Below are positions 450 to 33,155 of a stretch of DNA of 33,155 nt, piece after piece. This DNA is from a virus. The notes under the pieces are model-generated. The model was not told the origin of the DNA. It saw nothing but the letters and a program-made list of their open reading frames with translations, and ran no database searches. The position numbers and the translations under genes were made by a program. Within the stretch, counting starts at the first letter, position 1; every line of letters starts with the position of its first letter. The stretch covers positions 371 to 33,525 of the IMG/VR virus record IMGVR_UViG_3300030101_001027; one strand, written 5' to 3'.

Positions 450-1313
450 TTATAATCCACAGCCACCACTATCACAAGAATTAAAGTCCTCATCAAACAA
501 TTCAATTTGCTCTTTATATTTTAACATATCTTCTATTGATAGACCATTTATTTTCCAAGTCCTTCCATAATCTTTTAAAAATTTTTTTTCTTGCTTTATA
601 AACCACTCTATTTTGTTTTTGTTTTTTTTATATTGATGTTTTATATAGAATGGAGTAGCACCCATACATCCAACGCAATTATTTATCCAAGCAAATCTTA
701 CAGGTTTACCTTTCCAAAAAGACTCAATCTTATCCTTAAATATTGCATCTTCTATTAATGGAAATCTTGCAGTTTGCCATTCTAAATTTTTCCATTTATT
801 TCTACCTCCAGCAGATTTACCTATAACAAACTTATCCTCTAAAAATCCATTTACATTTTGTTTGTCTAGCATTGTTTTTCCTCTATTCATTTCATTTGCC
901 CTGAAACCTATTCTCATTTCACAAACTTCTCTTATGTTTTTATACCACCACTCCTTCATAGGTTTTAGTTTCATTTCAGTAGTGCAGAACCTCATATTGC
1001 TTTGAGGTAAATAAGTTTTTCCTCCTCCTTTCTGAAGAATAACATCATCAAATGTTTTGCCTGTTATCCAATCAATTTTCTTTCCTATCATTTGCTCTAG
1101 GTCTAGCATTGTGTAAATTATAACATCATCTTCTAGTGTTCCAATAAACTCAGTTCCTATTCTATCACTTACTTCTTGTCTTATTTTCTTATCAGGAAAC
1201 ATACAATTTTTATCATTAGTCCTAACAAGTGCAAATACATTATAGTCAGCAGGGTAATGAACTGCTATATAACTTGAAGTCTTACCTCCACTTAAACTAT
1301 TTACTGTTTTCAT
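450..1313 (-). CDS. PP-loop ATPase / PAPS-reductase-like protein
   Basis: A 287-residue protein of the adenine nucleotide alpha-hydrolase (PP-loop) fold as in PAPS reductase and DndC-like proteins. The PP-loop SGGKTSS lies at residues 8-14, and the FCTTEMKLKP segment matches the CT-x-x-K region of PAPS-reductase-like enzymes. Two more cysteine groups, NNCVGCMG and the C-terminal CDSGGCG, could hold a metal or Fe-S cluster. The family activates sulfate or modifies DNA/RNA through an adenylated intermediate; the actual substrate here is unknown. I chose the ATG at 1313 because the upstream TTG frame overlaps the -7 promoter box. It is the only minus-strand gene of the genome, with its own promoter (1341-1373), and the terminator at 164-200 lies downstream. 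DNA phosphorothioation, base modification or sulfur metabolism are all possible. Confidence 0.75.
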   Translation of the reverse strand: MKTVNSLSGGKTSSYIAVHYPADYNVFALVRTNDKNCMFPDKKIRQEVSDRIGTEFIGTLEDDVIIYTMLDLEQMIGKKIDWITGKTFDDVILQKGGGKTYLPQSNMRFCTTEMKLKPMKEWWYKNIREVCEMRIGFRANEMNRGKTMLDKQNVNGFLEDKFVIGKSAGGRNKWKNLEWQTARFPLIEDAIFKDKIESFWKGKPVRFAWINNCVGCMGATPFYIKHQYKKNKNKIEWFIKQEKKFLKDYGRTWKINGLSIEDMLKYKEQIELFDEDFNSCDSGGCGL

Positions 1314-1340
1314 ACCACAAATATAAAACAAAAAACATCG

Positions 1341-1373
1341 CAAAGTTCAATTTTATAAATTAATGTTAACAAT
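1341..1373 (-). promoter_or_regulatory. Minus-strand promoter of the PP-loop gene
   Basis: On the minus strand ATTG (1373-1370), a 21-base spacer and GAACTTTG (1348-1341) followed by CG fit the Bacteroidota -33/-7 pattern with one mismatch in the -7 box. The predicted transcript start is about 20 bases before the ATG at 1313. A second -7-like TATATTTG (1325-1318) lies even closer to the start codon but lacks a -33 box. Confidence 0.5.
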
Positions 1374-4489: not shown

Positions 4490-4689
4490 AACCATACGGA
4501 TGGTTAAATAGTTTATATATGGTAGCAGAAAAAAATATATTTAAAATGGATGGAGAAAATCATATTGAAAGTGTTAAAAAAACTGACTTATATAAAGTTT
4601 TAACTTATTTAAGTTGGAATACTGCTAAAAATGACTATGAAACTGCTGTTCAAGAAAAAATACATAATAAAAACAACATAACATTATAA
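4351..4689 (+). CDS. Tail assembly chaperone, T-like extension reached by frameshift
   Basis: Open frame in the -1 register relative to the gene at 3809. A -1 slip after TTT TTT at 4364-4369 would add 106 residues and produce a fusion of about 293 residues (3809-4689). The extension continues FDYAKRKINKDFP and ends KNDYETAVQEKIHNKN, helical and basic. An ATG at 4351 could start it independently, but it sits upstream of the slippery run without a clear leader, and the gpG/gpGT arrangement explains the overlap better. The long form in known phages recruits the tail tube protein. Confidence 0.6.
   Translation: MGVQFFFDYAKRKINKDFPNVFGQNRGGVGTGKNRVSTIGLYNKFIKPYGWLNSLYMVAEKNIFKMDGENHIESVKKTDLYKVLTYLSWNTAKNDYETAVQEKIHNKNNITL
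4363..4371 (+). promoter_or_regulatory. Probable -1 ribosomal frameshift slippery site
   Basis: The run of nine T gives two canonical X-XXY-YYZ heptamers in the zero frame: T TTT TTT (4363-4369) and T TTT TTG (4366-4372). A -1 slip moves the ribosome from the frame of 3809 into the open frame that runs to 4689. GGGAG at 4353-4357, six bases before the run, could act as an internal Shine-Dalgarno stimulator as in dnaX. No strong downstream hairpin was seen by eye. Confidence 0.65.
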
Positions 4690-15221: not shown

Positions 15222-15525
15222 AATTGATGTTGTAAAAGACTTTATTGAAACTGCTGGTATTGGACTAGAAAAAAGATTTGGGCTACATCCTACCTGTAAA
15301 GACATTGTTAGACATTTTGTAGAAAGAGGTATAATAGAACCTAAAAGACTTCGTAACTTTATGATTATCGTAGACTTTGATAGAATGTTGGCTACAAACA
15401 AGGGTAGCAGAACTCACACTTGGATGGATTTATCTATAAAGTACAACATAAGCGAGAGCCAAGCACAGAACATAGTTTATAAAGAAAGGCAGAAGTCAAC
15501 AATATCTTATAATATTAGAGATTAA
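15187..15525 (+). CDS. Small HTH-like DNA-binding protein (putative)
   Basis: A 112-residue basic protein. The C-terminal third, LSIKYNISESQAQNIVYKE, has the spacing of a helix-turn-helix with the recognition helix around SESQAQNIV, and the front part (IGLEKRFGLHPTCKDIVRHF) is helical. It stands last before the head operon promoter at 15568, so it could be a late regulator or a packaging-related DNA-binding protein. The first residues MPLKRKKQKQNK overlap the preceding gene; a later start is possible but no good ATG follows. Confidence 0.5.
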   Translation: MPLKRKKQKQNKIDVVKDFIETAGIGLEKRFGLHPTCKDIVRHFVERGIIEPKRLRNFMIIVDFDRMLATNKGSRTHTWMDLSIKYNISESQAQNIVYKERQKSTISYNIRD

Positions 15526-17713: not shown

Positions 17714-18307
17714 ATGGCAATAGATAAAGGAATCGGTGTAGATTGTACATCCCTACAAAGCACAGGTGGTATAAAACAAATATGCCTTAGAAGTTTTGCT
17801 ACTGATGATGTTGTAACTTATGATAATGGTGTGGGTAAGCATGATGTAACAAAGATTACTAGTGGTGGTGGTTCAACAGCGAATTGGTTTGTTTTTGAAT
17901 TTAAAAATGAAACTGCTGCACTAACTATAAATGCAACTAAAGAAAATGGCTCAACAGCATTTGAGTGTGGTCTTAATTTTATGATACCACAAATAAACAA
18001 TACTAGGATGCACGAATTACAAACAATGCTTGATACTTGTATGATGGCAATAGTTGTAACCACAAATGATGAAAAATTAGTTATAGGTCTAAGTGAAAAA
18101 TATGCAAACGAAGATGTGCCTTCTAAAAATCAAACTTTCTTAAATTTAGCAAGTATGGAGGGTGGTACAGGTGCTGCGTATTCAGATGAAAATGGTTTGA
18201 CAGTTAATTTGATGGCTAGACAGTTTGAACTTCCAAGACAATACGACCCAGCAACTGGTGCAGGTCTTGTAATTGATACGTCTGCTTTAACAGCAACTAC
18301 AACATAA
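17714..18307 (+). CDS. Putative major tail tube protein
   Basis: A 197-residue beta-rich protein starting MAIDKGIGVDCTSLQ. Size, beta content and lack of membrane segments suit a tail tube protein, and no other gene in the window fits that required role. It lies right after the capsid gene and its hairpin, an abundant-protein position. A capsid accessory protein is the alternative. No family-specific motif was seen, so the call is by elimination and context. Confidence 0.5.
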   Translation: MAIDKGIGVDCTSLQSTGGIKQICLRSFATDDVVTYDNGVGKHDVTKITSGGGSTANWFVFEFKNETAALTINATKENGSTAFECGLNFMIPQINNTRMHELQTMLDTCMMAIVVTTNDEKLVIGLSEKYANEDVPSKNQTFLNLASMEGGTGAAYSDENGLTVNLMARQFELPRQYDPATGAGLVIDTSALTATTT

Positions 18308-21844: not shown

Positions 21845-22510
21845 ATGCCTTGCTACGAATGTGAAAATGGTAAATGGAAGTTTGGTCAAACTGGCGAATG
21901 TCAGTATGATTCTAAACAAACCTGTGAAACTGCCAATAAAGACTATTATGCAGAAGAAACTTATAATGACTACCCACAAGCAGCAACCAATAATGCTAAG
22001 AGAGCAATAAAGTATAAAGAAGAGAATGGTAGTGATTGTGGTACTATCGTTGGCTGGACAAGAGCAAGGCAACTTGCTAATAGAGAAAGCCTTACAAGAA
22101 GAACCATTGCTCGTATGGCTTCATTTAAAAGACACCAGCAACACAAAGATGTTCCTTATGATGAAGGTTGTGGAGGTATAATGTGGGATGCTTGGGGTGG
22201 TGATGCAGGGGTTAATTGGGCAATAAAGAAATTAGAACAAATAGATAAAAAAAACATGGCTAAAAAAAGAAAATACTATTCTGATGATGAGCATGACCAT
22301 CACTTTCACTTTACTCAAGAAATGATGGAAACTTTACATCATGAAGGAGAACTAGAGGTTAAGGTTCAGGAAGATGACAATGAAATGCTTATACTTTTTA
22401 CTTATGATGTGGATGAAATTGAAGAATACACTCCAGAAGAAGAAGATATTAAAGATGAGTTTGGTGGATATTTTGATGAGATTATTCAAAATCTTAATCA
22501 ATCAAAATAA
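21845..22510 (+). CDS. Phage protein with NAKRA-type helical domain
   Basis: A 221-residue protein in three parts. Residues 1-35 are Cys-rich (MPCYECENGKWKFG, ECQYDSKQTCE). Residues 42-140 contain YPQAATNNAKRAIKYKEENG, TIVGWTRARQLANRE and IMWDAWGGDAGVNWA, a domain I recognise from phage head or prohead-protease-associated proteins; its function is not established to my knowledge. The rest is acidic with a His-rich spot (DDEHDHHFHF). It ends 1 base before the endolysin gene. A head-associated or DNA-binding role is possible. Confidence 0.55.
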   Translation: MPCYECENGKWKFGQTGECQYDSKQTCETANKDYYAEETYNDYPQAATNNAKRAIKYKEENGSDCGTIVGWTRARQLANRESLTRRTIARMASFKRHQQHKDVPYDEGCGGIMWDAWGGDAGVNWAIKKLEQIDKKNMAKKRKYYSDDEHDHHFHFTQEMMETLHHEGELEVKVQEDDNEMLILFTYDVDEIEEYTPEEEDIKDEFGGYFDEIIQNLNQSK

Positions 22511-23493: not shown

Positions 23494-24582
23494 ATGAAAA
23501 AAAACGGAAAAAGACTTAGGCTATCTGAAGAAGAGGTGGAAATGATTTACGAAAGTAGAGCAACAGAAACCAACGTAAACAATAATACAGTATTAGATAT
23601 GCACCTTGATGAAAGGGGTATTGATAAAAAAGATGTAGTATCGGTAAAACATTGGCAGTCTGCAAGTGGAGAGTTTAGATTCAGCGTAGTAACAAAAGAA
23701 GATGTATCTATAACTACAAACGATATATTAGATAAGATAAGTGAATTTATAGAAAACTATTCTCCTCATTACCCATCAGTAAAAAGAAAAAATAAAAATG
23801 CAAATCACTTATTAGTAATAAATCCAGCAGACATTCATATAGGTAAATACGCAAATGCCAATGAAACTGGCAGTGAATATGACGTTGAAACTGCTTGTAT
23901 GCAAGTTTTAGAGGGGCTACAAGGGCTTATTGACAAGTCTAAGGGGTTTAGTATAGAAAGGGTTTTATTCTGCATAGGAAACGATGTTTTGCATATTGAC
24001 AATGTATATGGCTCAACGACAAAAGGTACTTATCAAGATACAGATGGTAAATGGTGGGAACATTTTGAGGTTGCATTAGCCTTATATGTTAAATGTGTAG
24101 AGATGTTAAGAGAGGTAGCACCTGTAGATGTCATACATTGTATGAGTAATCACGATTATCAAAGTGGCTTTCATTTAGCACACGCATTAAAAAGTTGGTT
24201 TAGACAAGACGAGGAAGTTTCTTTTGATGTAGGGGTGGCACATAGAAAGTATTATCAGTATGGTACTAACTTGATAGGATTAGAGCATGGTGATGGTGCT
24301 AAGATGGACAATCTTCCTTTATTAATGGCTCAAGAAAAGCCAGATATGTGGAGTGAGACTAAGTACAGGTATTGGTATTTACATCATTTACATCACAAAA
24401 TAAAACATAAGTGGAGAGATGCTAAAGACTTTATAGGTGTTACTGTAGAGTATATGCGTTCACCATCAGGGACTGATAGTTGGCACTCAAGAAAGGGATA
24501 TACAGGTATTTTAAAAGCAGTAGAAGGCTTTGTTCACGAAAGAAATAGTGGTCAAGTAGCACGATTAGTTCATTATTTTTAG
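23494..24582 (+). CDS. Calcineurin-like metallophosphoesterase
   Basis: A 362-residue protein with an N-terminal helical region (about 1-100, LSEEEVEMIYESR, HTH-like) and a calcineurin-like phosphoesterase domain: PADIHIG (Asp113, His115), IGNDVLH (Asn163, Asp164), MSNHD, LEHGDGAK and the HHLHH metal motif. These are the usual dinuclear-metal ligands of the SbcD/phosphodiesterase superfamily. In phages such proteins are thought to process DNA ends or nucleotides. It is a single gene behind its own promoter and structured leader, between the lysis and replication blocks. Confidence 0.8.
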   Translation: MKKNGKRLRLSEEEVEMIYESRATETNVNNNTVLDMHLDERGIDKKDVVSVKHWQSASGEFRFSVVTKEDVSITTNDILDKISEFIENYSPHYPSVKRKNKNANHLLVINPADIHIGKYANANETGSEYDVETACMQVLEGLQGLIDKSKGFSIERVLFCIGNDVLHIDNVYGSTTKGTYQDTDGKWWEHFEVALALYVKCVEMLREVAPVDVIHCMSNHDYQSGFHLAHALKSWFRQDEEVSFDVGVAHRKYYQYGTNLIGLEHGDGAKMDNLPLLMAQEKPDMWSETKYRYWYLHHLHHKIKHKWRDAKDFIGVTVEYMRSPSGTDSWHSRKGYTGILKAVEGFVHERNSGQVARLVHYF

Positions 24583-25617: not shown

Positions 25618-25801
25618 TCACTTTAGTAAACCTCACTCTTATATTGTGTGGTACAAAAAAAATATACTTGGCGAGGTTATTGAAGATGAAATTATGCAAC
25701 TTTTAAATAAAAACCAGTTGGTTGATTTCTATCACGTTGGGAAAAATAAATTTAAAATAGAAAAGTCTAAAGTAGATAAATACTTAACAAATGACAAATA
25801 A
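25589..25801 (+). CDS. Hypothetical small protein
   Basis: A 70-residue protein if it starts at the ATG at 25589 (MECLDIEIYNHFSKPHSY); a longer frame starts at 25547 inside the previous gene. The rest, KNILGEVIEDEIMQLLNKNQ and FYHVGKNKFKIEKSKVDKYL, looks like a small alpha/beta protein with a basic end. No family recognised. Both neighbours overlap it (29 bases before, 11 after), so translation is probably coupled. Confidence 0.5.
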   Translation: MECLDIEIYNHFSKPHSYIVWYKKNILGEVIEDEIMQLLNKNQLVDFYHVGKNKFKIEKSKVDKYLTNDK

Positions 25802-26033
25802 ATATTCTTTAAACAAGATAAGAAAATCAAGGAACGAATTTGAGGCTTTGCTTAGAATATATGGTGTATCTAATTTAAGGCTTTGTAAAGTGTTAGAGGT
25901 TAACTATGCAACAAGTAAAAAGTTTATTGCTACACCAACTAACATGAGGTTTATACACGCTAAAAGATTAGCAGACTATTTAGGGTTAGAGTTTCAGGAC
26001 ATTGTTGATACTATTGTGTATGACATTAAATAA
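25791..26033 (+). CDS. HTH regulator (Cro/C1-like)
   Basis: An 80-residue protein with a helix-turn-helix of the Cro/C1 type: RIYGVSNLRLCKVLEVNY (second helix with the conserved turn), the recognition segment ATSKKFIATPTNM and the closing helix FIHAKRLADYLGLEFQDI. It is likely to bind operator DNA as a regulator of early genes. It is not divergent from another regulator, so a classical lysogeny switch is not visible. It is followed by a 190-base gap with a promoter-like element. Confidence 0.7.
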   Translation: MTNKYSLNKIRKSRNEFEALLRIYGVSNLRLCKVLEVNYATSKKFIATPTNMRFIHAKRLADYLGLEFQDIVDTIVYDIK

Positions 26034-26095: not shown

Positions 26096-26225
26096 TAGAG
26101 ATTACCAGTCATTATTGATAAACAACAAGAAATTGAATATTAATTAAAAAGAAAAATTAGTTTACAATGGACAATCGGAGATGGCTTCTCTGTTTGTATG
26201 GTTTATTAACTTAAAAAATAATAAA

Positions 26226-26663
26226 ATGAAAAGAAGAAGAGTAAAATTTAGCGACTATTATGACGAAATAATAGTTAATGAAATATGTGAAATATATGAT
26301 GTTGAAAAAGAAAGATTGTTTTTAGGAAGCAGAAAAAGAAACATCATACAGGCTAAAAGATTGTATATTTACATATTAAGAGAGGTTTTTGATATGACCT
26401 TGAAAAATATAGGTAAGGTTACAAACTTACATCATGCATCTATAATACATCATCATGAGCAGTTTAAATTTGAATACGAGACTTATGAATCAGAACAACA
26501 AAATTTTGAAAGAGTTGAAAACAAAATTATTGAAGTTGAAGTAGATGAAGAAATAAGAGATTTAGAAGAACAATTAAACACAATAAATAACACATTAACC
26601 AAATTATATAAAATAAATAAATTAAAGTATGAAAGAAAAGAAAGACAAAGTCTACTTGCCTAG
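26226..26663 (+). CDS. DnaA domain-IV-like DNA-binding protein
   Basis: A 145-residue protein. Residues about 15-80 look like domain IV of DnaA, the part that binds DnaA boxes: VNEICEIYDVEKERLFLGSR, then RNIIQAKRLYIYILREVF and the signature NLHHASIIHHHEQ (67-79), equivalent to DnaA's GgRDHSTVxHA. No ATPase domain is present. The remainder (80-145) is a charged coiled coil. The ATG at 26226 follows the A-rich leader; an upstream start at 26181 is less likely. It probably marks or helps open the phage origin, or competes with host DnaA. Confidence 0.65.
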   Translation: MKRRRVKFSDYYDEIIVNEICEIYDVEKERLFLGSRKRNIIQAKRLYIYILREVFDMTLKNIGKVTNLHHASIIHHHEQFKFEYETYESEQQNFERVENKIIEVEVDEEIRDLEEQLNTINNTLTKLYKINKLKYERKERQSLLA

Positions 26664-27416: not shown

Positions 27417-28058
27417 ATGAAAGAACAACCAAACTACTATGCTATAATTAGTGCTGAGGTTAGGTATGATAAAAACCTTACTGCCAATGCTAAATTATTA
27501 TATGCTGAAATTACTGCATTACTCAATATGAATGGTGAGTGCTTTGCAACTAACAAATACTTTTCTAATCTTTATGGCAAGAGTATAGTAACAATATCTA
27601 AATGGATTGGCGAACTAATTGCAAATGGCTATATATCATCTAGTTACACTTATAAAGGGGGTACTAAAGAAATTGATAGGAGGTATATAAGTATTCTTAA
27701 AGGGGGTATTAAAGAAAACGACAAGGGGGGTATTAAAGAAAAGTTTAAGGATAATAATACAAGTATTAATATTAATCTTACAGATAGTAATAATAAGGTG
27801 CGTTTTAAAAAACCAACTATTAATGAAATTGCTGATTATTGTACTGAAAGAAAGAATAATATAGATGCAGAAACTTTTTATGATTTTTATGAAAGTAAAG
27901 ATTGGAAGATTGGTAAAAACAAGATGAAGGCTTGGAAGGCTTGTATAAGGACTTGGGAAAAAAGACAAACTAAAAACAATAACAGTATGAGTAAGATACA
28001 TTCTCATTTGCAAAAGAATATTAATGTAAAAGAAAAACTAAAAAAACAATTTAACTAA
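27417..28058 (+). CDS. Replication initiator (O-like, winged-helix)
   Basis: A 213-residue protein. Residues 1-95 are a winged-helix domain: NYYAIISAEVRYDKNLTANA, FATNKYFSNLYGKSIVTISK (recognition part), IGELIANGYISS. Residues 94-111 contain KGG(T/I)KE repeats encoded by the iterons at 27654-27741. The C-terminal domain (about 130-187) starts FKKPTINEIADYCTERK and holds FYESKDWKIGKNKMKAW, which resembles C-terminal domains of phage replication initiators. It is likely to bind its own iterons and load the replisome, as lambda O does. It overlaps the next start by one base. Confidence 0.7.
   Translation: MKEQPNYYAIISAEVRYDKNLTANAKLLYAEITALLNMNGECFATNKYFSNLYGKSIVTISKWIGELIANGYISSSYTYKGGTKEIDRRYISILKGGIKENDKGGIKEKFKDNNTSININLTDSNNKVRFKKPTINEIADYCTERKNNIDAETFYDFYESKDWKIGKNKMKAWKACIRTWEKRQTKNNNSMSKIHSHLQKNINVKEKLKKQFN
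27654..27741 (+). repeat. Iteron array inside the initiator gene (candidate origin)
   Basis: Three 19-base copies of (A)AAGGGGGTATTAAAGAAA start at 27654, 27699 and 27723, with a degenerate copy (ATAGGAGGTATATAAG) at 27676. The spacing is 22, 23 and 24 bases, near two helical turns. An AT-rich stretch (27750-27795) follows, as in an unwinding element. This copies the lambda design, with origin iterons inside the O gene. Confidence 0.6.
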
Positions 28059-28958: not shown

Positions 28959-29343
28959 TAAATATTATCACGAAACTGGTAGGAATGGATGGACACCATC
29001 TAATACTTTTGATAATAAAGAAGATATGATAAATCCTAAAATGCTTTTAAGTAAAGACGAAATAATGAAAAAAGAAAAAGTAGATTACAACTTTAATTGG
29101 CATTTAGACAAAGTGTCTGACAGAGTAGTGAAACTGCTGAAAGAAAAAAATTCAGCCTATGGTAACACAGCATTGAACCCTCCAAACATATTTAGTAAGT
29201 TAGATTCTACTGAGGCTATATGTGCTAGGCTAGATGATAAGTTATCAAGAATAAAAAATAGAGGTATAAATGATAAGACAGAAGATACTGTTGATGATAT
29301 AATTGGATATTTATTTCTATTAAAAATGTCAATGGAAAAATGA
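28945..29343 (+). CDS. MazG-like nucleotide metabolism protein
   Basis: A 132-residue protein. Its second half (VSDRVVKLLKEKNSAYGN, then NIFSKLDSTEAICARLDDKL and DTVDDIIGYLFLLK) fits an all-helical MazG-like/nucleotide-modification-associated domain (DUF1599 type), in which acidic residues of the helices bind metal and a nucleotide. Such phage proteins hydrolyse NTPs or alarmone-type nucleotides, or assist base modification. The first 45 residues are a basic/polar extension. It overlaps the next gene by 4 bases (ATGA). Confidence 0.6.
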   Translation: MTKHNKYYHETGRNGWTPSNTFDNKEDMINPKMLLSKDEIMKKEKVDYNFNWHLDKVSDRVVKLLKEKNSAYGNTALNPPNIFSKLDSTEAICARLDDKLSRIKNRGINDKTEDTVDDIIGYLFLLKMSMEK

Positions 29344-29600: not shown

Positions 29601-29873
29601 ATGCCAAAGATTAGAAAAATAAAATTAGAAGATAGAAAAGATAGTAGAGGTGGAGGTTACTCCAGAAGAAAGTTTACTGTAGAAGAAGCAGACGCTATTA
29701 GAAGAGAGTACAAAACCTCAACACCCAAAATAACAATATCATCTCTTGCTAGAAAATACAGCGTATCTCAACCCCTAATGTACCAACTTGTTAAAGGAAC
29801 TACCTATAACGAGGGGGGCATGGGGGGTAGTAGGGGGGTACGTGGTGAAAACATTGTAGGTGGTAAACTATAA
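29601..29873 (+). CDS. Small HTH DNA-binding protein
   Basis: A 90-residue basic protein. Residues about 25-65 hold a helix-turn-helix: FTVEEADAIRREYKT, then ITISSLARKYSVSQPLMYQL with the recognition helix in SQPLMYQLVKG. The first 22 residues are basic, and the end is Gly-rich (EGGMGGSRGVRG), encoded by three runs of six G at 29813-29838. It could regulate or modify early genes. Unusual: those G-runs in an AT-rich genome. Confidence 0.6.
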   Translation: MPKIRKIKLEDRKDSRGGGYSRRKFTVEEADAIRREYKTSTPKITISSLARKYSVSQPLMYQLVKGTTYNEGGMGGSRGVRGENIVGGKL

Positions 29874-30221
29874 ATGAAAAAAGAAGCACAAGTACAATCA
29901 TCATTCTGCACTTATATGCAGTTCGCATATCCTGACATAAGATACTGTGCTAGTCTTGGTGGTATCAGAACATCTATGAAACAAGCAGTCTTAGCCAAAA
30001 AGACAGGATATGTCAAAGGCTTTCCTGATATGCAAATCCTAAAAGTAAATAGTCAATATGCTGGACTATTCCTAGAAATCAAAGCAGACAAAAAATCCTA
30101 CCCATCTAAAGAACAGAAAGAATGGGTGGCATATCTTAATGAAGCAGGTTACTATGCTAAAGTAGTTAAAGGTCTTGAAGAATGTATGGATGTTCTTGAT
30201 TGGTACATGAAAATAAAATAA
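29874..30221 (+). CDS. VRR-NUC domain nuclease
   Basis: A 115-residue protein matching the VRR-NUC fold: KGFPDM (Asp52), LFLEIK (Glu68, Lys70) and KEQKEW (Gln81) in the order G-x-PD ... E-x-K ... Q. VRR-NUC phage proteins cut DNA with structure or junction preference and act in recombination or packaging. The gene starts right after the previous stop, so it belongs to the operon, and it is the last gene before the repeat array at 30243. Confidence 0.8.
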   Translation: MKKEAQVQSSFCTYMQFAYPDIRYCASLGGIRTSMKQAVLAKKTGYVKGFPDMQILKVNSQYAGLFLEIKADKKSYPSKEQKEWVAYLNEAGYYAKVVKGLEECMDVLDWYMKIK

Positions 30222-30242
30222 TTTTTTAAAAAACTTTCTCGC

Positions 30243-30285
30243 TGAAACTGCTGGTGAAACTGCCCTGAAACTGCCCTGAAACTGC
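30243..30285 (+). repeat. Tandem array of TGAAACTGC, about 11-bp period
   Basis: TGAAACTGC occurs at 30243, 30255, 30266 and 30277 (steps 12, 11, 11), then TAGG follows. The step is near one helical turn, and an 11-base period cannot be a coding repeat. The array lies in the 261-base gap 30222-30482 upstream of the promoter at 30418. A related array is at 31965-32018. Confidence 0.75.
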
Positions 30286-30294
30286 TAGGCTTCT

Positions 30295-30306
30295 TGCGTA
30301 TACGCA
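30295..30306. promoter_or_regulatory. Palindrome, candidate operator
   Basis: TGCGTATACGCA is a perfect 12-base palindrome right after the repeat array. Further on, GCATA-ATA-TATGC and a perfect TTGTTAACAA (30377-30386) add two more palindromes before the promoter. Together they look like a regulated control region. Confidence 0.5.
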
Positions 30307-30417
30307 CACGCACCCCCACCCACGTTCCTATATGTGATATTTCCTATGCGTGCATAATATATGCTTGCATAATAAGTTGTTAACAATTAATTTTTAATAA
30401 ACTTTTTACACATTTTG

Positions 30418-30448
30418 TTTGGTAATGTTAAAAAGTGTTGTATATTTG
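30418..30448 (+). promoter_or_regulatory. Strong promoter of the small-gene operon
   Basis: TTTG (30418-30421), 19 bases, TATATTTG (30441-30448) then CA: exact consensus. It precedes the ATG at 30483 by about 28 bases of leader and serves the operon 30483-31932. Confidence 0.75.
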
Positions 30449-30482
30449 CAGCAAACAAAATTATTAATTAAAATTTTAAACA

Positions 30483-30680
30483 ATGGCAAAATTATCTATT
30501 AAAGAATGCAAAGAATTTCTAAAAGACAAAAATAATAAGAAATTTAAAAACCTTTATATAATGATAAATAAGTACGTAGAAAAATACAATAATTATGAAA
30601 GCCAGTATATGATACAAACATCTAAAGCGTATCAAAAAAAGGCAGAAAATAAAAAATTAAAATTATATAATAGAATTTAA
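30483..30680 (+). CDS. Small basic protein
   Basis: A 65-residue Lys/Asn-rich, helical protein (MAKLSIKECKEFLKDKNNKK, then SKAYQKKAENKKLKLYNRI). It is the first gene after the strong promoter. The composition is like small nucleic-acid or RNA-polymerase-directed early proteins, but no family is recognised. Confidence 0.55.
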   Translation: MAKLSIKECKEFLKDKNNKKFKNLYIMINKYVEKYNNYESQYMIQTSKAYQKKAENKKLKLYNRI

Positions 30681-30698
30681 CAACTAAAAACAAAAACA

Positions 30699-30941
30699 AT
30701 GAAAAACATTAATATCATAACTGGACAAGACTACAAAGCAACACATAAAAAAACTAAAAAAGTTTATTTTATGAACGCACAAGAACTAGCCAACTTTCTA
30801 TTTAAGTATGGATATAAAAATTTTAAAATAGATAATTTAAATAAAAAACTAATTGATTACATACCATTATGGCTAATTGTTACTGTAATGATTGCGGCAT
30901 TTATAACTTCTATATTGCTACACATACAACTTAACTATTAA
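30699..30941 (+). CDS. Small membrane protein
   Basis: An 80-residue protein with a basic cytoplasmic-looking part (residues 1-52) and one C-terminal membrane segment (YIPLWLIVTVMIAAFITSILL, about 54-74). The charge pattern predicts the N-terminus inside. Function unknown; a superinfection-exclusion or envelope-acting role is possible. It follows the 30483 gene after 18 A-rich bases. Confidence 0.55.
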   Translation: MKNINIITGQDYKATHKKTKKVYFMNAQELANFLFKYGYKNFKIDNLNKKLIDYIPLWLIVTVMIAAFITSILLHIQLNY

Positions 30942-30956
30942 TTAAAAATATAAATT

Positions 30957-31232
30957 ATGAAATTAGATAAATTTTACGAATGGATGGAGGCAACAAATCA
31001 AAATTTTCTTAACCCTACCGAGTACAACGGCAATAACTACACATGTAATGAATGTGGAAATCTTTTGGAAGTTTCGGATGTTTGCGAATGTATAAACGAA
31101 TATATAGAAGAATATATTATACCAAACGAATCAAACGAAAATATTAAATTATATTATAAAGGTTGCCTAGAATATGACAACGAATATATAAAAGAACATA
31201 AAAAATATAATACAGAATATAAAACAAAATAA
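30957..31232 (+). CDS. Small acidic protein with Cys motif
   Basis: A 91-residue acidic protein. CNECGNLLEVSDVCEC (about residues 30-45) gives a C-x-x-C ... C-x-C pattern that could bind zinc. The rest is Glu/Tyr/Asn-rich (EYIEEYIIPNESNENIK). No family recognised. It sits in the operon of tiny genes behind the promoter at 30418. Confidence 0.5.
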   Translation: MKLDKFYEWMEATNQNFLNPTEYNGNNYTCNECGNLLEVSDVCECINEYIEEYIIPNESNENIKLYYKGCLEYDNEYIKEHKKYNTEYKTK

Positions 31233-31252
31233 CTAACTAAAACTATAAACAA

Positions 31253-31420
31253 ATGAAAAAAGAAACACTAGAACAAGCAAATAAATTATTTGCACTATAT
31301 CAATTAGACACATTCATAAAAGATAATAAAATGTTTTTAAATTTAGGAAATATTGAAATTGAAATAAGCAAAGAAGAAATAAAAGCAAGAGCAAACCAGT
31401 ATAATAATTTAAAACAATAA
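31253..31420 (+). CDS. Hypothetical 55-residue protein
   Basis: A frame starting MKKETLEQANKLFALYQ behind an A-rich leader (ACAAATG). Helical, charged, ends KARANQYNNLKQ. No family recognised. Spacing and orientation match its neighbours, so it is likely real. Confidence 0.5.
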   Translation: MKKETLEQANKLFALYQLDTFIKDNKMFLNLGNIEIEISKEEIKARANQYNNLKQ

Positions 31421-31424
31421 AAAA

Positions 31425-31568
31425 ATGAAACAAAATAAAAATTACAAATTAAACAAATTAATTTATAAAGAAATTAAAAATAAATCTTTTGCAAACTCAG
31501 AAGAAAAAACAAAAGAAGCAATAGAAGTAATAAAAAAAATATTAAATAATAAAACAATAAACAAATGA
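31425..31568 (+). CDS. Hypothetical 47-residue basic protein
   Basis: A frame starting MKQNKNYKLNKLIYKEIK four bases after the previous stop. Very Lys-rich, helical, ending ATGA-coupled with the next gene. No family recognised. Low sequence complexity means that only position and coupling support it. Confidence 0.45.
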   Translation: MKQNKNYKLNKLIYKEIKNKSFANSEEKTKEAIEVIKKILNNKTINK

Positions 31569-31846
31569 CAAAGACAATAACAACAGACAAAGCAAAAGAA
31601 ATAATAAAAGCAAATAAATATAAGTTTTTTACTGCACACTTTATTAAAAAAAATAATACAACTAGAGTTTTAAATTGTATGATTGGGAAAAGATGGGAGG
31701 CAAAGACTGACAGAACACAACCCTATAATCCAGAAGATTACAACTTAATTAAAGTATATGATTTAAAAAAGAAAGGATTTAGAATAATAAACTTTGAAAC
31801 GCTTTACAAATTAAATATTAATAAAACTAAATATAAAATACTATGA
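31565..31846 (+). CDS. SH3-like small phage protein
   Basis: A 93-residue protein: FFTAHFIKKNNTTRVLNCMI, GKRWEAKTDRTQPYNPEDYN, LIKVYDLKKKGFRIINFETL. This order of strands, with the RVLNC turn and the KKGFRxIN end, matches a small beta-barrel family found in many phages and often labelled SH3 beta-barrel fold-containing; its function is unknown. It starts on the stop of the previous frame (ATGA) and its stop overlaps the next microprotein start. Confidence 0.65.
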   Translation: MTKTITTDKAKEIIKANKYKFFTAHFIKKNNTTRVLNCMIGKRWEAKTDRTQPYNPEDYNLIKVYDLKKKGFRIINFETLYKLNINKTKYKIL

Positions 31847-31932
31847 GCAAATCAGGACTTCCACTTACCAACTATTCAAACACCACTCTTACAGTGATTT
31901 TTTTACTTGCTTTAATTTTTGGCGGTTGTTAA
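31843..31932 (+). CDS. 29-residue membrane peptide with C-terminal Cys
   Basis: A frame starting MSKSGLPLTNYSNTTLT, with one membrane stretch ending LLALIFGGC. It overlaps the previous stop (ATGA). The size, single span and terminal Cys copy the peptide at 14635-14724. The GGC end is like a lipobox with nothing after it. An A/T hairpin (AAAAAAAATATTTTTT, 31931-31946) follows and may end the operon. Confidence 0.45.
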   Translation: MSKSGLPLTNYSNTTLTVIFLLALIFGGC

Positions 31933-31964
31933 AAAAAATATTTTTTATTTTTTATTTTTTTTTA

Positions 31965-32018
31965 TGAACTTGCTGAATCTGTTGAATCTGTTGAATCTGT
32001 TGAATCTGTTGAACTTGC
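31965..32018 (+). repeat. Six 9-bp tandem repeats
   Basis: TGAACTTGC (31965), four exact TGAATCTGT (31974, 31983, 31992, 32001) and TGAACTTGC (32010), then TAGG. The first and last units are identical, framing the four central ones. An ATG at 31964 opens a 24-residue frame, (NLL)6 then GTPKY, ending at 32038. It resembles the array at 30243-30285, which also ends GCTAGG, and lies in the 253-base gap 31933-32185. Confidence 0.75.
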
Positions 32019-32074
32019 TAGGTACACCGAAATATTAGTGCTAAGTATTTGAGTGTCAGAATATTACACCGATT

Positions 32075-32120: not shown

Positions 32121-32154
32121 ATTGTGTATTATTTAAAAAATGTTTGTATATTTG
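32121..32154 (+). promoter_or_regulatory. Promoter of the last operon
   Basis: ATTG (32121-32124), 22 bases, TATATTTG (32147-32154) and CA: a good -7 box with a slightly long spacer. The transcript would start near 32160, 26 bases before the ATG at 32186. Confidence 0.6.
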
Positions 32155-32970: not shown

Positions 32971-33073
32971 GTGCTTAATATCTACATACTACAACCACAT
33001 AAAACAAGTTAAAAACGTATTAAATAGATATGTTATTTTTTAATCAATGTTTGTTAAATTAAAATAAATTTGT

Positions 33074-33155
33074 TATGATATGTTGGTTTTTTTTCTTTTT
33101 ATCCATACACAGAACAAAAAAAAAGATACTTTTTAAGATAAAAATATCAAGATAA
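33074..33155. repeat. Right copy of terminal direct repeat
   Basis: This copy matches 1-82 with three differences (33075, 33080, 33099) and is identical over the last 56 bases. It ends exactly at the window edge. Confidence 0.85.

Follow-up and report, generated by a model that had tools for sequence, protein, structure and literature searches.

Co-oriented arrays of a 9-bp word are a conserved element of uncultured marine phages and putative sites of protein binding

Two tandem arrays of short asymmetric units, found in the genome of an uncultured virus, belong to a conserved element that is kept in one orientation at operon boundaries of related phages. The arrays are likeliest to be clusters of asymmetric protein-binding sites, and the putative binding protein is most likely encoded by the phage itself. 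The word TGAAACTGC, of which the first array is built, also occurs as scattered single copies in coding sequences, on the strand that carries the genes and at frequencies usually above those of codon-shuffled controls, and it is therefore a genome-wide polar word. Together, the clusters and the same-strand copies point to a protein that reads the word for the control of transcription or replication.

The DNA analysed here (the window, 33,155 nucleotides) makes up most of a 33,525-bp IMG/VR virus record and encodes a set of siphophage proteins: TerL, tape measure, portal, exonuclease, a DnaD-like initiator, a DnaA-domain-IV protein, a VRR-NUC nuclease and an endolysin. The phages that carry the arrays are uncultured marine phages, very probably of Flavobacteria-like hosts, and their TTTG-N19-TANNTTTG promoters indicate a Bacteroidetes host. 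By its terminase, the closest cultured phage is Croceibacter phage P2559Y (45%), while a search for prophage or host relatives of the terminase, run without a positive control, found none in 400 genomes of one bacterial family. P2559Y has repeats of its own, eleven exact 15-bp in-frame copies at the start of a small gene that follows the portal gene (L486, 5077-5239); as an in-frame coding repeat, they were rejected as relatives of the arrays. No integrase was recognised in the proteins searched. Almost all genes lie on the + strand, the only clear minus-strand gene being a PAPS-reductase-like gene (phrog_424, window 450-1343), which among the other genomes compared has a relative only in the sister phage G429 (57%). 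Positions 1-86 and 33066-33155 of the window are near-identical (about 85 bp with few mismatches), and the record has 370 bases before the window start; the similarity of the two ends may stem from a circular genome assembled with an overlap, or may be a direct repeat.

The VRR-NUC gene closes the operon on the replication side, and the first array begins about 20 bp past its stop codon. The arrays and their immediate upstream neighbours are the following:

29874-30221, + strand: VRR-NUC nuclease gene (PF08774, E=7.9e-6; 80 relatives)
30222-30242, + strand: AT-rich tract immediately 5' of array 1 (AT content against background)
30243-30285, + strand: array 1, four TGAAACTGC units with spacers TGG, CC and CC, then TAGG; kept in 71/71 relatives
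31933-31964, + strand: A/T tract ahead of array 2, read from the sequence
31965-32018, + strand: array 2, TGAACTTGC-(TGAATCTGT)4-TGAACTTGC with a 9-bp step, then TAGG

Both arrays are thus present where the original prediction had placed them, and a chance origin is ruled out by Markov simulations: in 300 simulated windows, 9-mers containing G or C reached at most two copies per 60 bp, against the four observed. Tandem Repeats Finder scores them at 65 (array 1) and 80 (array 2). The units of array 1 start at 30243, 30255, 30266 and 30277 (steps of 12, 11 and 11), those of array 2 at 31965 (TGAACTTGC), 31974, 31983, 31992 and 32001 (TGAATCTGT) and 32010 (TGAACTTGC), and each array ends in GCTAGG (30284-30289 and 32017-32022), as had been noted before. 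Array 2 can also be read as a 24-codon ORF (window 31964-32038, M(NLL)6GTPKY), which is probably a by-product of the 9-bp repeat.

A search with the VRR-NUC protein gave 80 loci, which, after removal of duplicates and incomplete ends, were reduced to 71 distinct downstream gaps. Every one of the 71 contains between two and seven co-oriented (T/C)GAAACTG(C/T) units and none contains a unit on the opposite strand. Steps between units are mostly 9, 11, 12 or 13 and never 10, and the last unit is mostly followed by TAGG, TGGG, CAGA or TGGA. The units are near-invariant and the spacers between them diverse; the downstream genes are hypervariable and the intervening sequence turns over, while the array is retained. 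In the reverse test, 108 contigs were collected solely by the DNA word, and 105 of them encode proteins that belong to this clade of phages. Such retention in all relatives examined fits binding by a dedicated factor. The suggestion that one factor serves both arrays is strengthened in so far as the same type of element occupies both gaps, with a conserved layout of an AT-rich or terminator end, an array and a promoter. Free variation of copy number, which had been named as an argument against regulation, does occur in the relatives, but the array is never lost. Neutral slippage, i.e. repeats without any function, might be suggested by that range of copy numbers and by the recent look of exact 9-bp repeats such as array 2; it is, however, extremely improbable in view of the 71/71 retention with constant orientation, diverse spacers and near-invariant units, and of the selection on the scattered copies described below. 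A partition site had also been considered; the searches, which covered the proteins of a subset of the ORFs, revealed no partition gene. Bacterial genomes yielded 18 scattered matches, which resemble repeats unrelated to the phage layout, and a literature search found, among the papers listed, none with the word in a phage context, and none on iterons of flavobacterial phages.

The word itself comes in several dialects. Other members of the phage group use AAGTAACTGC, CGAAACTGC or TGGAACTGT as the array word. The layout is also preserved in the sister phages, whose TerL is 65-74% to that of the window; their arrays consist of TGAAACTGC in some cases and of AAGTAACTGCC in 11-bp steps in others; the differing, related word AAGTAACTGC of sister phages occupies the same kind of position. 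Several phages of the focal clade have, in addition, a second array, homogenised to a word of its own (TGAATCTGT in the window, CGAAACTG in G014-G016, TGGAACTG in G003). In the window and in G003 this array precedes a second gap, and in G014 a promoter was recognised about 148 bp after it. Array 2 is a second case of the array 1 layout with a homogenised word of its own. In some sisters the units lie within coding sequence, where they are read as Glu-Thr-Ala repeats. L343 and L349 have word arrays on the minus strand that are part of a coding sequence and encode Glu-Thr-Ala repeats in frame, and the gene that bears them resembles the gene following VRR-NUC in G017-G019.

Downstream of each array lies a promoter, separated from it by a gap with features of its own:

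30297-30440, + strand: gap between array 1 and its promoter, with an alternating purine/pyrimidine stretch (GCGTATACGCACACGCAC), a 15-bp direct repeat and a GTTAAC palindrome
30418-30448, + strand: Bacteroidetes-type promoter after array 1 (TTTG, about 19 nt, TATATTTG), arranged in the same way in relatives
32122-32154, + strand: promoter after array 2 (TTG, 22 nt, TATATTTG)

The motif TATATTTGC occurs only twice in the window, at 30441 and 32147, i.e. about 155 and 128 bases from the ends of the respective arrays, a small correction of the 100-130 bases predicted originally. Where relatives have a recognisable promoter next to the array, the distance from the array to the end of the TANNTTTG box is about 125-185 bp (median about 153), a few falling below or above this range; the fixed pattern missed the promoter, or placed it further off, in several whole genomes. 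The palindromes and repeats expected between array and promoter were found in gap 1, where GCGTATACGC lies close to 30297 and a 15-bp repeat occupies 30345-30374. In many focal relatives the palindrome TTTAGAATNATTCTAAA lies between array and promoter, and G017 (rotated, about 31500) has a repeated AGTGTA..TACACT in this place; these palindromes are possible operators. In 40% of the relatives' gaps the alternating purine/pyrimidine run in the 70 bp after the array exceeds the 99th background percentile. In L151, L161, L178 and others the array is followed at once, ahead of the promoter, by an alternating purine/pyrimidine (GT/GC) tract that can reach about 30 nt; these tracts, GT-rich in some cases and AC-rich in others, are Z-DNA-prone.

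The 40 bp before the array have a median AT content of 88% (52 gaps), against a background median of 70% and a 95th percentile of 85%. In several phages the array lies directly 3' of an intrinsic-terminator hairpin and T-run; in the window no dedicated terminator was recognised between VRR-NUC and array 1, and two terminators elsewhere have no array behind them. The absence of a recognised terminator there is compatible with an element that acts at the level of RNA, in which unstructured repeats in nascent transcripts would recruit or titrate an RNA-binding protein, as are the location of every copy on the coding strand, the flexible spacing, which resembles that of sponges for RNA-binding proteins, and the presence of some units in terminator hairpin loops of sister phages. 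We nevertheless regard this explanation as quite improbable: many arrays are placed behind a terminator and ahead of the next promoter, and thus may be untranscribed, while the lack of any Rfam match and of a stable fold (z-scores of +0.85 and +0.94) argues against a known structured RNA.

Four genes of the window encode proteins that might bind the arrays, all of which are candidates only:

25791-26033, + strand: Cro/C1-like HTH gene (PF13443, E=3.1e-4, a match that narrowly misses the gathering score)
26181-26663, + strand: gene for a stand-alone DnaA domain IV, a DnaA-box-binding HTH (PF08299, E=2.4e-12)
27417-28058, + strand: DnaD/helicase-loader-like initiator gene (replication initiation families of PHROG, best E=7.5e-22; HTH_36, E=1.6e-12)
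29601-29873, + strand: small HTH-like gene (weak HTH_Tnp_1 match, E=0.009), conserved in both clades

In sister phages, the last of these genes immediately precedes the array. The AT-rich flank, the universal retention and the proximity of initiator genes favour a replication origin, the chief rival of the stoperator-like role discussed below, in which the arrays would be iterons or DnaA-box-like sites for the DnaA-domain-IV protein or the DnaD-like initiator, beside an AT-rich unwinding element (the 88% AT lies above the 95th background percentile). Consistent with an origin, the array is retained in 71/71 gaps while the downstream genes change, the gap ends the operon of replication genes, the spacing of the units is irregular like that of DnaA boxes, and, besides the DnaD-like initiator, the DnaA domain IV protein is clear in the focal clade and in several sisters. 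Relatives of the latter are clear in G422, G019 and G430 and only sub-threshold in G018 and G440, in which the protein is strongly diverged. We still find an origin rather doubtful, since one genome may contain several arrays with different words, the copies inside genes are left unexplained, and the type of the DnaA-like protein does not cleanly track the array word (the proteins of G018 and G440 are 61% identical and the array words of these phages differ). Moreover, the GC skew shows no reversal at the array, although the strand bias of the genes could mask one, and GC/AT skew was uninformative as an origin marker. DnaA-like inverted box pairs (TTATTAACA..TGTTAATAA) were set aside as a common property of the gaps, since among the genomes scanned only G017 and G440 have the strict pattern.

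In addition to the arrays, the window contains six single TGAAACTGC copies inside genes, which had been missed previously. Each is on the + strand, and the - strand has no copy:

4638-4646, + strand: single TGAAACTGC in a coding sequence, read from the sequence
15246-15254, + strand: single TGAAACTGC in a coding sequence, at the same codon position in 5 genomes
17908-17916, + strand: single TGAAACTGC in a coding sequence, 4 genomes
21925-21933, + strand: single TGAAACTGC in a coding sequence, at the same codon position in 11 distinct genomes
23886-23894, + strand: single TGAAACTGC in the exonuclease coding sequence, 14/17 genomes
29129-29137, + strand: single TGAAACTGC in a coding sequence, 5 genomes

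Outside the arrays TGAAACTGC is the top 9-mer of the window under an order-3 model (6 copies against 0.33 expected, and 0 on the other strand). Over 17 related genomes, the gene strand carries 95 copies outside arrays against 5.4 expected, and the other strand 3 against 2.7; these copies are not independent, as those that were mapped share about 24 codon positions, the others being unmapped. Within coding sequences the count is usually severalfold above the mean of synonymous-codon shuffles, and above every shuffle in most, though not all, genomes; Glu-Thr-Ala is nearly always spelled GAA-ACT-GC. Selection on the scattered word thus acts at the level of nucleic acid and not of protein. Codon conservation at individual sites is suggestive and modest, and the spacing of the scattered copies is not significantly regular. 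The one-strand bias is shared by the sister phages that use TGAAACTGC, while in G017-G019, which use AAGTAACTGC, the gene strand is essentially free of scattered copies of that word. The same-strand copies of TGAAACTGC are left unexplained by a purely local operator model, as first envisaged for the two arrays.

Strict orientation, copies both scattered and clustered, and selection at the DNA level inside genes would also be expected of a polar DNA-processing signal, such as Chi (read by RecBCD/AddAB), a packaging signal or a nuclease-protection signal, read from one side of a linear or concatemeric genome, and phages without recombination functions of their own are known to over-represent the Chi of their host (PMC3784561). 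The comparison with bacteria makes this improbable. In 395 Bacteroidia genomes the word reaches at most about 35 copies/Mb, versus 165/Mb outside arrays in the phages, and in the one Maribacter genome checked the word is only about 2-fold over expectation, although E. coli Chi itself has been reported at an O/E of only 2.3 (PMC3784561). The densest host genome lacks strand domains along long contigs, and the AAGTAACTGC phages are essentially devoid of scattered gene-strand copies. A host Chi site was accordingly disfavoured in so far as no enriched or strand-segregated genome was found among the sampled Bacteroidia, and recombination hotspots were rejected, the mosaic breakpoints of 11 genome pairs being no closer to the word than random.

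The orientation with transcription, the placement between operons and the scattered same-strand copies lead us to favour, tentatively and at less than even confidence, a stoperator-like role, in which asymmetric sites of a phage-borne protein act with the polarity of transcription at operon boundaries. We infer protein binding, a phage origin of the binder and transcription as its target. One sequence-specific protein would bind a 9-bp site with a core of roughly NG(A/T/G)A(A/T)CTG(C/T) and would act in cis where the replication-side operon meets the variable small-gene operons; the bound array would block or insulate transcripts that leave the upstream operon, and/or determine how active the promoter is that lies some 130-155 bp further on, while the same-strand single copies would serve as weaker sites, like the stoperators of mycobacteriophage L5. 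Several observations weigh against the stoperator-like role: the arrays are kept everywhere though the downstream genes look dispensable, the scattered copies are mostly inside genes and essentially missing from G017-G019, and no protein family cleanly separates the two dialects of the word. Besides, with almost all genes on one strand, the polarity of transcription is inseparable from that of replication or packaging. A broader possibility, which we consider unlikely, is a new genome-wide control system of phages, in which one phage-encoded protein reads a polar 9-bp word, in an array at the operon boundary and in single copies on one strand, and thereby co-ordinates transcription (or replication) over the genome, while the word drifts into dialects from one related phage to another.

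Whatever their role, the arrays are a diagnostic cis-element for a common clade of uncultured marine phages, and they offer a concrete target word, in two natural dialects, in a host group whose phages have poorly described regulatory and replication sites. If the role is stoperator-like, orientation-dependent genome-wide silencing would reach beyond actinobacteriophages. The stoperators of Cluster A (L5-like) mycobacteriophages are alike in being asymmetric and oriented with transcription (PMC9283540), in being present in many copies per genome and in having words that differ between related phages (PMC6550527). They differ in length (13-14 bp, against 9 bp for the marine phage sites, which form tandem arrays in one or two gaps). 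For the immunity repressor that binds stoperators, the marine phages have candidate HTH proteins, and no integrase was recognised among the proteins searched. Stoperators favour short intergenic spaces; in the marine phages the arrays are intergenic and the single copies mostly inside genes. Iteron and DnaA-box clusters, such as the lambda O sites and oriC, share with the arrays short direct repeats, an AT-rich tract and nearby initiator genes, and the marine phage has a domain of the DnaA-box-binding type; in contrast to them, the marine phages have several array words per genome, polar copies inside genes and an array word that does not cleanly track the DnaA-like protein. Chi in phages is likewise a short polar word over-represented on one strand, but no comparable enrichment was found in the sampled Bacteroidia, and the marine phages carry the word in tandem arrays at a fixed gap.
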